Below are positions 20,421 through 22,758 of a stretch of 47,023 nt of DNA, piece by piece. Numbering within the stretch: position 1 is the first letter of the stretch; each line of letters starts with the position of its first letter. Made by a program: the position numbers and the translations under genes. The notes under the pieces were generated by a model. That model worked only from the letters and a program-made list of their open reading frames with translations, was not told where the DNA came from and did not search any database. The stretch spans positions 1 to 47,023 of IMG/VR virus record IMGVR_UViG_3300032236_000625; one strand, written 5' to 3'. This DNA comes from a virus.

Positions 20421-21156
20421 ATCCAGAATATTTAATATGATTGAATGTATCAAAACTCGCTCGCGTAAATTGTTTGAGGCAAATGAACTTGAACTATCAT
20501 CATCCGAGTTTATCGCTGCGTTCATCGACCAAGACCATATTGAGCCTCTAAATAAAGTACAGGATTTAGTGGGGGTAGTAAGTAATTCTTATGTAGCTAC
20601 CGAGATATACGCTAATTATGGAGATGGGCTGGTAGAGCAATTCCTTTTCGGTGTTAATTTCCATATCCAACCACCAATTATCCTTCCGAAATATGTGCAA
20701 CGAGGTCCGCGTCCAGATGCACCAAAAGAGATACTTGAGAAGATTAATGTGTGGCTTTTAGAGAGAGTCCGTCTTGGTAAAATCTTTGGCGATGCCGTGG
20801 ACTCACTTGTCTGGCTCAATAATAATTGCAAAGATATCAGAGCAATGAGGGCGATGTTTCCTGCTTTAACCATATTGCTTCGTGATGTAGCAACCGATGA
20901 GAAGTCTGCGGCCGCACGCATGGCGGTAAAACTCGATGGGTCTAAAGGTGTAACAAACCTACCTTCCTTACCTCGTGAAGTAACCAACGATATCCTTCAA
21001 GCAAGTAATACGATTGTCGCTACAACATTACTTGACGGGGTAACTAATAACGCCACCCGCGAAAAAGGCTCGGCTACATTCACACTAAATGCCTACAGAA
21101 AAGCCAAGCACAGAAATCTATTCGACAAAGAACGCACCACAGGATCATTCTTATGA
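20404..21156 (+). CDS. 250-residue unknown protein
   Basis: ATG at 20404 with AAGGAG upstream. Predominantly helical; IFNMIECIKTRSRKLFEANE at the start, then LVGVVSNSYVATEIYANYGD, a Pro-rich centre (IILPKYVQRGPRPDAP), IFGDAVDSLVWLNNNCKDI, and a basic C-terminus. No enzymatic motif. Two palindromes late in the gene spell LPREVTN (20967-20984) and LLDGVTN (21027-21044). It ends in an ATGA overlap with the first of the tail-sharing small genes. Confidence 0.6.
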   Translation: MGLMPESRIFNMIECIKTRSRKLFEANELELSSSEFIAAFIDQDHIEPLNKVQDLVGVVSNSYVATEIYANYGDGLVEQFLFGVNFHIQPPIILPKYVQRGPRPDAPKEILEKINVWLLERVRLGKIFGDAVDSLVWLNNNCKDIRAMRAMFPALTILLRDVATDEKSAAARMAVKLDGSKGVTNLPSLPREVTNDILQASNTIVATTLLDGVTNNATREKGSATFTLNAYRKAKHRNLFDKERTTGSFL

Positions 21157-21383
21157 CCATCAATAGGTTCCCACCATATTACGATTTATGCTTACGTTGC
21201 CGCGAGAAGGGGTTGGATAATGTGGCTGACTTTATCCATGAACTATACGCTGATCGGGAGCGGTTGCGGGAAGCATTAGCCGATCTTGTAGCCATCCAAA
21301 ATGGACCGCCATTGGTGACGTACACTGAGGCATGGGATGCAGCGATGGAAAAAGCGTATGCCGCATTGAAGGAGGGTGAGTGA
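21153..21383 (+). CDS. 76-residue Ea22-like small protein
   Basis: Charged helical protein (VADFIHELYADRERLREALA) ending AMEKAYAALKEGE, an architecture like the Ea22-type phage proteins whose helical body ends in an ALKEGE-type tail. Its last codons and the next start codon form the first copy of the 23-base junction repeat. Function of such proteins is unknown. Confidence 0.6.
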   Translation: MTINRFPPYYDLCLRCREKGLDNVADFIHELYADRERLREALADLVAIQNGPPLVTYTEAWDAAMEKAYAALKEGE

Positions 21384-21619
21384 TGGATATTGTAGAACAG
21401 TTGCGCAGTGTAACGCGCCTTTTGCGTGAGACTGAAGAAACATCTTATGAACCAGATGATACTCTTGCATCTGAAGCCGCTGACAAGATTGAGAAATTGC
21501 AAGAGGCGTTGCAAATGTTGGTAAATGAAAAATGTGACTACATGATATTAAATTTATTGGGCGACCCAGAACAACAGCATACAATAAAAATTGCCCGTGC
21601 CGCACTAAAAGAGGTGTAG
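21383..21619 (+). CDS. 78-residue small protein, unknown
   Basis: ATG at 21383 with GGAGGG upstream inside the junction repeat. Acidic helical N-terminus (DIVEQLRSVTRLLRETEE), a central AADKIEKLQEALQMLVNEKC segment, and a tail ending IARAALKEV. The DIVEQLR and AADKIEKL parts are typical of small Ea22/DUF551-type phage proteins. Function unknown. A GTG one codon earlier is also in frame. Confidence 0.6.
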   Translation: MDIVEQLRSVTRLLRETEETSYEPDDTLASEAADKIEKLQEALQMLVNEKCDYMILNLLGDPEQQHTIKIARAALKEV

Positions 21620-21621
21620 TA

Positions 21622-21837
21622 ATGATAATTCATAGCCCATTAAATACTGATAATTACGTAGCGGCGGTTGATGCACTAATGGAAAAAATAAAGCAGTTTA
21701 ATAAAGAGAATAAACGGTTGCGTAATGCTTTGAAACAATTCTGCGACAGTTACGAGCCTCACTTGTCACCAGAGCGTTGTCAGCATTGTAGCGAATCCTA
21801 TTGGGAAGCCCGTGCCGCACTGAAGGAGGGTGAGTGA
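21622..21837 (+). CDS. 71-residue small protein, unknown
   Basis: Starts behind GAGGTG in a diverged junction. Contains ALMEKIKQFNKENKRLRNAL (coiled coil) and a Cys/His cluster SPERCQHCSESYW, then the EARAALKEGE tail. CxxC plus nearby residues could bind zinc, but no second pair is obvious. The tail and stop are part of the second near-identical junction repeat. Confidence 0.6.
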   Translation: MIIHSPLNTDNYVAAVDALMEKIKQFNKENKRLRNALKQFCDSYEPHLSPERCQHCSESYWEARAALKEGE

Positions 21838-22034
21838 TGGGGGATATAAATTGTCCACATTGTAACACTGAATTGAATATAAATCATGACGACGGACTTG
21901 GGTGTTTTGAAACTTGTAAAGATGAAATGCAATGTAACGAATGTGAGCAAAATTTTATTCTTACAACTTACATTTCGTATCATTATGAGGCCCATAAATC
22001 GGATTGCAGTGCCGCACTGAAGGAGGGTGAGTGA
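21837..22034 (+). CDS. 65-residue zinc-ribbon-like protein
   Basis: Two CxxC pairs, CPHC near the N-terminus and CNEC in the middle, plus a separated Cys, suggest a small zinc ribbon. The middle is NHDDGLGCFETCKDEMQCNE and the tail DCSAALKEGE. Small zinc-ribbon proteins are common in phage accessory regions and usually unassigned. Starts one base before the previous gene's stop ends, with GGAGGG upstream. Confidence 0.6.
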   Translation: MGDINCPHCNTELNINHDDGLGCFETCKDEMQCNECEQNFILTTYISYHYEAHKSDCSAALKEGE

Positions 22035-22342
22035 TGCGTATTGAAGAAGTCTATAACATTTGTGATGCTGATATTTATCATGCAACAGATGCTACCAAAA
22101 AATATCTTAACATTTTGGGTCAAGACAAAAAGCGTGGGTACAGAAAAGCATTGGTAGGCATTTTGTACAAACACCCGCATAAATTTTGCTCAACAGATAA
22201 TCCGATAGAGGAATTATTGCGCGTTTTGAACGTGGTGACACTTGCTGTTGAGTATGATGGAAGATTAACGGAAGATAAAATTGCGGACTTGGTTTCGTTT
22301 TTCATTGAACGATTCAAGAATATGAACCCCATGCCGAACTGA
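22034..22342 (+). CDS. 102-residue small protein, frame-shifted relative to the junction tail
   Basis: Helical body (YLNILGQDKKRGYRKALVGI, then NPIEELLRVLNVVTLAVEYD and IADLVSFFIERFKNM). It stops with a TGA 13 bases before the next ATG. Read one frame over, the last stretch spells EPHAELKEGE then TGA, the tail used by the neighbours. So the junction DNA is present but the reading frame no longer enters it. Function unknown. Confidence 0.6.
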   Translation: MRIEEVYNICDADIYHATDATKKYLNILGQDKKRGYRKALVGILYKHPHKFCSTDNPIEELLRVLNVVTLAVEYDGRLTEDKIADLVSFFIERFKNMNPMPN

Positions 22343-22355
22343 AGGAGGGTGAGTG

Positions 22356-22475
22356 ATGAGGAAGTGGATCGTACGCCATGAACAGGTAGGCGGTGATATC
22401 TGGGCGTTATGGGAGAATGACGGTGGCGACAGATGGTACGTGCAGGTTACTATTAACGGAGAGGTGCAGTGGTGA
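22356..22475 (+). CDS. 39-residue Trp-rich peptide, unknown
   Basis: ATG at 22356 at the end of a junction repeat with GGAGGG upstream. Sequence MRKWIVRHEQVGGDIWALWE, then DRWYVQVTINGEVQW; unusually Trp-rich for its length. The final bases GAGGTGCAGTGGTG are a diverged junction. It overlaps the next gene's GTG start by four bases. Short but well framed by coupling on both sides. Confidence 0.5.
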   Translation: MRKWIVRHEQVGGDIWALWENDGGDRWYVQVTINGEVQW

Positions 22476-22666
22476 AAACACCCACAAAGTGCAAAGGTTG
22501 TTTGGCACTGGCTTCTAATATTAGTGAGCGTCAAGGGAAAAAGAAAAGACACGACCATTGCTGTTATATTGGTGCTGCAAATCAAAGCATTGTCGTGTCT
22601 CACAATTATTGCAAAAATAAAGCCTATGAAGGCTACAGGCCAAAATTGAAGGAGGGGCAGTGGTGA
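22472..22666 (+). CDS. 64-residue Cys-rich protein
   Basis: GTG start in a GTGA overlap. Six cysteines: CKGC early, HDHCC in the middle and YCK later, giving a zinc-finger-like pattern. Basic overall and ending KLKEGQW, a variant of the ALKEGE tail. I do not recognise a family. A GTG one codon earlier (22469) is an alternative start. Confidence 0.55.
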   Translation: MKTPTKCKGCLALASNISERQGKKKRHDHCCYIGAANQSIVVSHNYCKNKAYEGYRPKLKEGQW

Positions 22667-22758
22667 TTGAGATCGGAACTAATTTAGCACAAACAATACA
22701 GATGATTTGCTTTTTCATTGGGGCGGTAGGTATTACTTATTTTATGCTCAGGAATTAA
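22663..22758 (+). CDS. 31-residue single-span membrane peptide
   Basis: GTG start in a GTGA overlap, GGAGGGG upstream. One hydrophobic segment, IQMICFFIGAVGITYFML, spans nearly the whole peptide and ends in a single Arg-Asn. Last of the junction-linked genes. It could be a small membrane-active protein; too short to assign. Confidence 0.5.
   Translation: MIEIGTNLAQTIQMICFFIGAVGITYFMLRN

Follow-up and report, generated by a model that had tools for sequence, protein, structure and literature searches.

Does a short sequence that recurs between consecutive small genes of a tailed phage serve only their translation, or is it also a joint at which whole genes are gained, lost and exchanged? The question was raised by one IMG/VR virus record of 47,023 nt, the whole of which was analysed and is referred to here as the window. 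The window encodes terminase, portal and capsid genes together with a family A DNA polymerase, a PD-(D/E)XK nuclease, a VRR/RecU-like nuclease and a SNF2-type helicase, and its run of small genes follows a 250-aa gene (20404-21156) and precedes the gene for that polymerase (23418). An earlier note on this DNA had described the small genes as cassettes joined by one repeated junction, hereafter the seam. This repetition proved to be real: the 18-mer GAAGGAGGGTGAGTGATG occurs in four exact copies (at 21368, 21822, 22019 and 22341), compared with a chance expectation of 0.01. The features of the run are listed in Table 1.

Table 1. Seam copies, related joints and cassettes of the small-gene run (positions in the window).
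Feature	Position	Strand	Basis
Seam copy 1, GCATTGAAGGAGGGTGAGTGATG	21363..21385	+	motif match
Seam copy 2, degenerate or decayed, GCACTAAAAGAGGTGTAGTAATG, tail RAALKEV; not counted in the earlier note	21602..21624	+	read in sequence
Seam copy 3	21817..21839	+	exact 23-mer
Seam copy 4	22014..22036	+	exact 23-mer
Seam copy 5, GAACTGAAGGAGGGTGAGTGATG, DNA intact	22336..22358	+	sequence and 18-mer match
Seam copy with 3 mismatches to the 18-mer, GAAGGAGGGGCAGTGGTG	22648..22665	+	motif search
Variant or related stop/start joint, GGAGAGGTGCAGTGGTGA	22458..22475 (approx.)	+	read in sequence
Intragenic seam, GAGCGGTTGCGGGAAGCATTAG (ERLREAL); homology to L153 ends, homology to L017/L001 begins	21256..21277	+	comparison
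Cassette 1, 76 aa, tail YAALKEGE, chimera	21153..21383	+	comparison with L153, L017, L001
Cassette 2, MDIVEQLR.. EAADKIEKLQ.. ARAALKEV, starts at ATG of seam copy 1	21383..21619	+	ORF
Cassette 3, 71 aa, coiled-coil, tail ARAALKEGE	21622..21837	+	ORF
Cassette 4, small CxxC/zinc-ribbon-like protein, tail SAALKEGE	21837..22034	+	phrog_6504, E 5.9e-07
Cassette 5, ends at out-of-frame TGA within seam, peptide tail lost	22034..22342	+	ORF
Cassette 6, 39 aa, MRKWIVRHEQVGGDIWALW..	22356..22475	+	protein similarity in 43 related loci
Cassette 7, 65 aa, tail PKLKEGQW	22469..22666	+	94-95% aa identity in L018, L064
Cassette 8, 31-aa membrane-like peptide, VIEIGTNLAQTIQ..	22663..22758	+	read in sequence

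The seam spans about 25 bp, reads GCACTGAAGGAGGGTGAGTGATG and includes the start codon. It closes one gene with the tail A-L-K-E-G-E and opens the next with an ATG, and it also carries a stop codon and a strong Shine-Dalgarno sequence; its core, AAGGAGG..TGATG, is a good ribosome site overlapping both stop and start. Stop codons in all three frames precede the ATG in 180 of 237 seams, compared with 23 of 292 other SD..TGATG starts in the same loci. An in-frame gene ending in LKEGE was present at 107 of the 118 non-redundant exact copies; at most of the 11 sites without one, the open frame ends at a TGA at the left edge of the seam. In the window, one gene likewise ends at a TGA (22340-22342) inside an intact seam whose neighbouring frame reads AELKEGE, as the earlier note had described, and its broader claim that the DNA junction is kept where the peptide is lost is upheld by the 11 tail-less sites. 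The tail alanine codon was GCA or GCG in all 154 cases, compared with about half in core genes, where the four codons are used about equally, indicating conservation at the DNA level in addition to that of the peptide; some of this bias may reflect recent common descent. Persistence of the DNA at sites that have lost the peptide led us to discard a peptide signal, such as a degron or tag, as the chief explanation of the seam.

The search of other genomes that the earlier note had suggested was fruitful. The exact 18-mer is present in at least 119 stretches of IMG/VR DNA, many of which carry several copies, and a longer form of the seam was found in 89 fetched loci. In an alignment of 186 copies, conservation reached GCCGCACT on the upstream side and, in many cases, GATATTGTTGAACGG on the downstream side. 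No match was detected among the INPHARED phages, either at the DNA level for the seam and its region or at the protein level for cassette 6, indicating that no cultured phage model is available. The exact 23-mer had no match in 84,980 GTDB genomes, and the degenerate form was found there in a single phage-like contig of a Ferrovum MAG. This contig, which was binned with the MAG, carries a seam-bearing array (L157:1-8000) and gives a weak hint that the hosts are betaproteobacteria. The carriers are presumably for the most part from lakes and bogs, an interpretation of IMG sample numbers and not a tool result. In one 30-kb record (L086, record G007), seam copies lie on both strands, which suggests an inversion, two divergent arrays or an assembly fold-back.

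If the seam marks a place of gene gain, relatives should differ in the number and identity of their cassettes while the junctions persist, as the earlier note had predicted. The nearest relative of the window, L153 (on the same contig as L072), is collinear with it as far as 21277 and once more from 23298 onwards, with about 76-77% DNA identity, and between these two points nothing beyond seam-length matches is shared. L153 has the same seams and flanking genes but a different set of cassettes, as predicted; the outcome that would have spoken against the idea, the same gene content with drifting junctions, is contradicted by the comparison with relatives. Clean insertions or deletions with both ends at seams were found in 14 cases. 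In the best pair, L060 and L111, whose sample numbers differ, flanks of 1171 bp and 3761 bp are 100% identical, and the only difference is one 425-bp cassette between two copies of TGCCGCACTGAAGGATGGTGAGTGATG, a 27-bp direct repeat. The shorter form retains a single seam copy, a pattern that would be the expected outcome of direct-repeat recombination.

The neighbours of the seam also proved to be promiscuous. We compared 298 seam copies with 150 bp on each side, of which 237 remained after removal of redundancy. Because these loci had been gathered by seam patterns, the choice of sites itself accounts for part of the identity inside the seam; evidence was therefore counted only from the flanks and from a control set of ribosome-site/ATG starts lying more than 2 kb from any seam on the same contigs. 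Within the non-redundant set, 208 pairs shared the upstream flank (at least 80%) with unrelated sequence downstream, 217 showed the reverse, and 4 shared both. The 151 upstream and 150 downstream families formed 233 distinct combinations, and the commonest upstream family (18 members) was joined to 16 different downstream partners. With redundancy kept, the probability that the downstream sequence was similar when the upstream sequence was similar was 0.20 at seams, compared with 0.81 at control starts (95% for any hit). Averaged by family, pairs with the same upstream flank remained about 97% identical through the G of the seam ATG, after which identity fell to 0.47 and soon to 0.25, and in pairs with the same downstream flank the loss came between position 0 and about -5 of the seam.

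Similarity breaks told the same story at the scale of whole arrays: within array spans, 309 of the 912 ends of matches of at least 90% fell at seams, compared with 8.7% for random points. Only about a third of the breaks thus coincide with this seam, and the remainder include a second stop/start joint and an intragenic EIERLR joint. The 14-mer TGAAGGAGGGTGAG had the most varied contexts of any in these regions, with 45 distinct left and 42 distinct right neighbours. Seam variants were partly linked to both flanks, a noisy signal that fits crossovers at varying points and not one fixed cut. As far as sequence comparison can establish them, the shuffling, the breakpoints at the seam, the exact gain or loss of single cassettes and a gene pool common to lineages with different core genes are demonstrated; the recombination step itself is inferred. 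The proposal in the earlier note that the junction is a seam for gene gain is supported by the single-cassette differences, the promiscuous neighbours and the spread of the seam through IMG/VR.

The cassettes of the window illustrate how far this pool extends. The first one matches L153 over its head (21142-21277, 78.7% identity), and its second half matches L017 (21264-21389, 98.4%) and L001 (21258-21390, 93%), L017 being a member of a group of 34 loci with a different terminase. On this evidence, cassette 1 is a chimera whose head was inherited vertically and whose tail half is common to unrelated phages, and its switch point at GAGCGGTTGCGGGAAGC is a second, intragenic joint that recurs in related loci. 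Part of cassette 3 (21706-21841) is 90.4% identical to L024. The two-gene block formed by cassettes 6 and 7 (22352-22665) starts and stops at seams and shows 88.9% identity to L018, although the terminase of the window has no counterpart among the 33 other seam-bearing records. Members of the cassette 8 family are likewise located behind seams in L004, L006, L018 and L088. Cassette 4 gave zinc-ribbon matches in Pfam, all of them weak. As a separate observation, chimeric coiled-coil proteins swap bodies at the intragenic joint GAGATTGAGCGGTTGCGG (EIERLR; 21256-21277 in the window, and related loci), which yields new proteins and not new gene orders.

Cassette proteins are small (median 79 aa), and the description of their bodies as unrelated was only partly correct. 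Among 337 seam-flanking proteins in relatives, 188 are linked into one chain of chimeras characterized by the head MDIVERLR, the coil EIERLR and/or the tail ALKEGE; the other 149 spread over 62 further clusters. Recognisable cassettes encode a dCTP deaminase, a Dam methyltransferase, a dUTPase, HTH regulators and a GcrA-like protein, most remain unidentified, and a scan for defence genes gave weak matches only; we infer that cassettes probably provide accessory early functions. The large chain would be expected if the small genes had arisen by ancient tandem duplication, with their ends preserved and their middles diverging. As a general explanation this is very unlikely, since the cassettes outside the chain, including dCTP deaminase, Dam methylase, dUTPase and HTH proteins, are unrelated, and genes that are almost identical in different phages lie beside unrelated neighbours, but duplication and divergence may still explain the origin of the chimera family.

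We therefore consider it very probable that the seam joins genes for translation and at the same time acts as a joint for short-homology recombination, giving phage lineages access to a common gene pool. Any gene joined on its left would be closed, since most copies contain stops in three frames, and any gene joined on its right would be translated from its Shine-Dalgarno sequence and ATG; with identical seams in many phages, cassettes could then be added, lost or swapped by short-homology recombination. The most likely agents would be Erf or Sak4 annealing proteins with RecE-like exonucleases, acting during coinfection. Rad52-like phage annealing proteins, the class tested by De Paepe et al. 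in 2014, carry out RecA-independent recombination of short, diverged sequences (PMC3945230). Among the 33 other seam-bearing virus records, 14 encode Erf and 6 encode Sak4 without overlap (20 of 33), and 11 encode YqaJ/RecE-like exonucleases; no RecT was found in the 34 virus records searched, which are partly fragments. No Erf, Sak4 or RecT was recognised in the window phage, whose only candidates are its nuclease genes and an unidentified protein at 29825-30787. This protein has conserved cysteines and an acidic C-terminal tail and is conserved in L154-L156, where it adjoins the primase; its structural model was poor (pLDDT 51), with no significant PDB match, and it is possibly, without confirmation, a single-strand DNA binding or annealing protein. 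Both cassette exchange by annealing proteins and translation of the operon by coupling are inferences, and this explanation is limited by the shortness of the shared homology (23-27 bp), by the metagenomic origin of all assemblies and by the absence of an exchange experiment. A bolder version, in which the seam has been selected as a common exchange standard through which unrelated phages with different annealing proteins use a communal, integrase-free cassette pool, is no more than a tentative possibility.

Could the seam instead be purely translational, an optimal arrangement of stop, ribosome site and start whose neighbours differ through illegitimate recombination and selection at gene ends? 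The quality of its core would agree with this, and comparable start-associated motifs of cluster K and Microbacterium phages have been read as translational signals (PMC3203893, PMC7302621). However, conservation reaches past the ribosome site on its upstream side, as far as GCCGCACT, and includes synonymous positions, a single copy remains after exact cassette loss, and breaks at the seam are well above random, so we regard this explanation as unlikely. The cassette logic, with small promoterless genes and precise junctions, would also suit an attachment site for an integrase-like enzyme, as in integrons. Against this, no tyrosine integrase (PF00589) was found in the 34 virus records, some of them fragments, and a serine resolvase was found in 1; the seam is not palindromic, its hairpins (-1.1 and -0.9 kcal/mol) are weaker than 174 of 200 shuffles (z about +1), and its variants lack a single fixed crossover position, which leaves site-specific recombination scarcely credible. 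The explanation to which we give least credence is misassembly, by which a short shared repeat would have produced chimeric contigs. Every contig is indeed metagenomic and the seam is a repeat, but of 181 upstream/downstream combinations 39 were present in at least two samples, which speaks against misassembly by chance, and the window is one contig with an ordered array from which its relative differs at the same place. A repeat of 27 bp is also shorter than the k-mers that assemblers usually employ, which again counts against an artefact.

Several known systems resemble this joint. Short shared sequences at gene ends, the lambdoid boundary sequences, were proposed as homologous recombination sites from which mosaics are built (proposal cited in PMC3029335). 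The seam has two of their features, namely the same short sequence at the module borders of different phages and phage similarity that begins or ends at that sequence. It differs in being repeated many times per array, in its three-frame stops and in its statistically supported breakpoints, and it is carried by phages whose terminases and replication genes differ. The ninR region of lambda, with its interlinked genes, belongs with these lambdoid boundaries. The start-associated sequence (SAS) repeats of cluster K mycobacteriophages are conserved repeats at ribosome sites that their authors suggest may be recombination targets (PMC3203893), and similar repeats occur in cluster EF Microbacterium phages (PMC7302621). 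Like the seam, SAS repeats are near-identical and lie at ribosome sites just before the starts of small non-structural genes. Unlike it, the SAS is a 13-bp motif, GGGATAGGAGCCC, upstream of the start, which the seam does not match; the seam includes the tail of the previous gene, stops, ribosome site and ATG, and its exchange is demonstrated by comparison. In T4-type phages, Arbiol et al. in 2010 reportedly described mobile regulatory cassettes, promoter/terminator stem-loops between genes that are linked to module shuffling; both kinds of repeated element are tied to shuffling, but the seam is translational and lies within coding sequence. Integrons share the arrays of small promoterless genes, the repeated joining sequence and exchange as units, but the seam array has neither an integrase nor a folding attC-like site, and its exchange is apparently by homology. 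The seam is a clear, quantified case, with a joint that is different, larger and crosses phage lineages.

Whether mosaics arise through short shared sequences or through random joining and selection is an old debate (PMC3029335, PMC3945230). The usual objection to the homology model is that most borders show no shared sequence, whereas here the shared sequence is repeated, lineage-crossing and quantifiable, and the exact before/after pairs make the model directly testable. Seams also provide a handle on accessory phage genes in metagenomes, since anything between two seams can be collected.

Two further observations were made. The protein encoded at 18973-20202 is labelled HNH endonuclease in PHROGs, whereas Pfam assigns DUF2201 metallopeptidase/VWA domains to it, and the PHROG label is probably wrong. 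In addition, an unrelated seam-like sequence, CTCCGCGCCGGGAAGGAGGG, with the tail LRAGKEGE or LRAGKEGQ and a ribosome site, was found at L014, L082, L101, L115 and L159-L166; in 12 of 13 viral contigs it closes longer genes that are unrelated to one another, the genes downstream of it differ, and joints of this kind may have had more than one origin.
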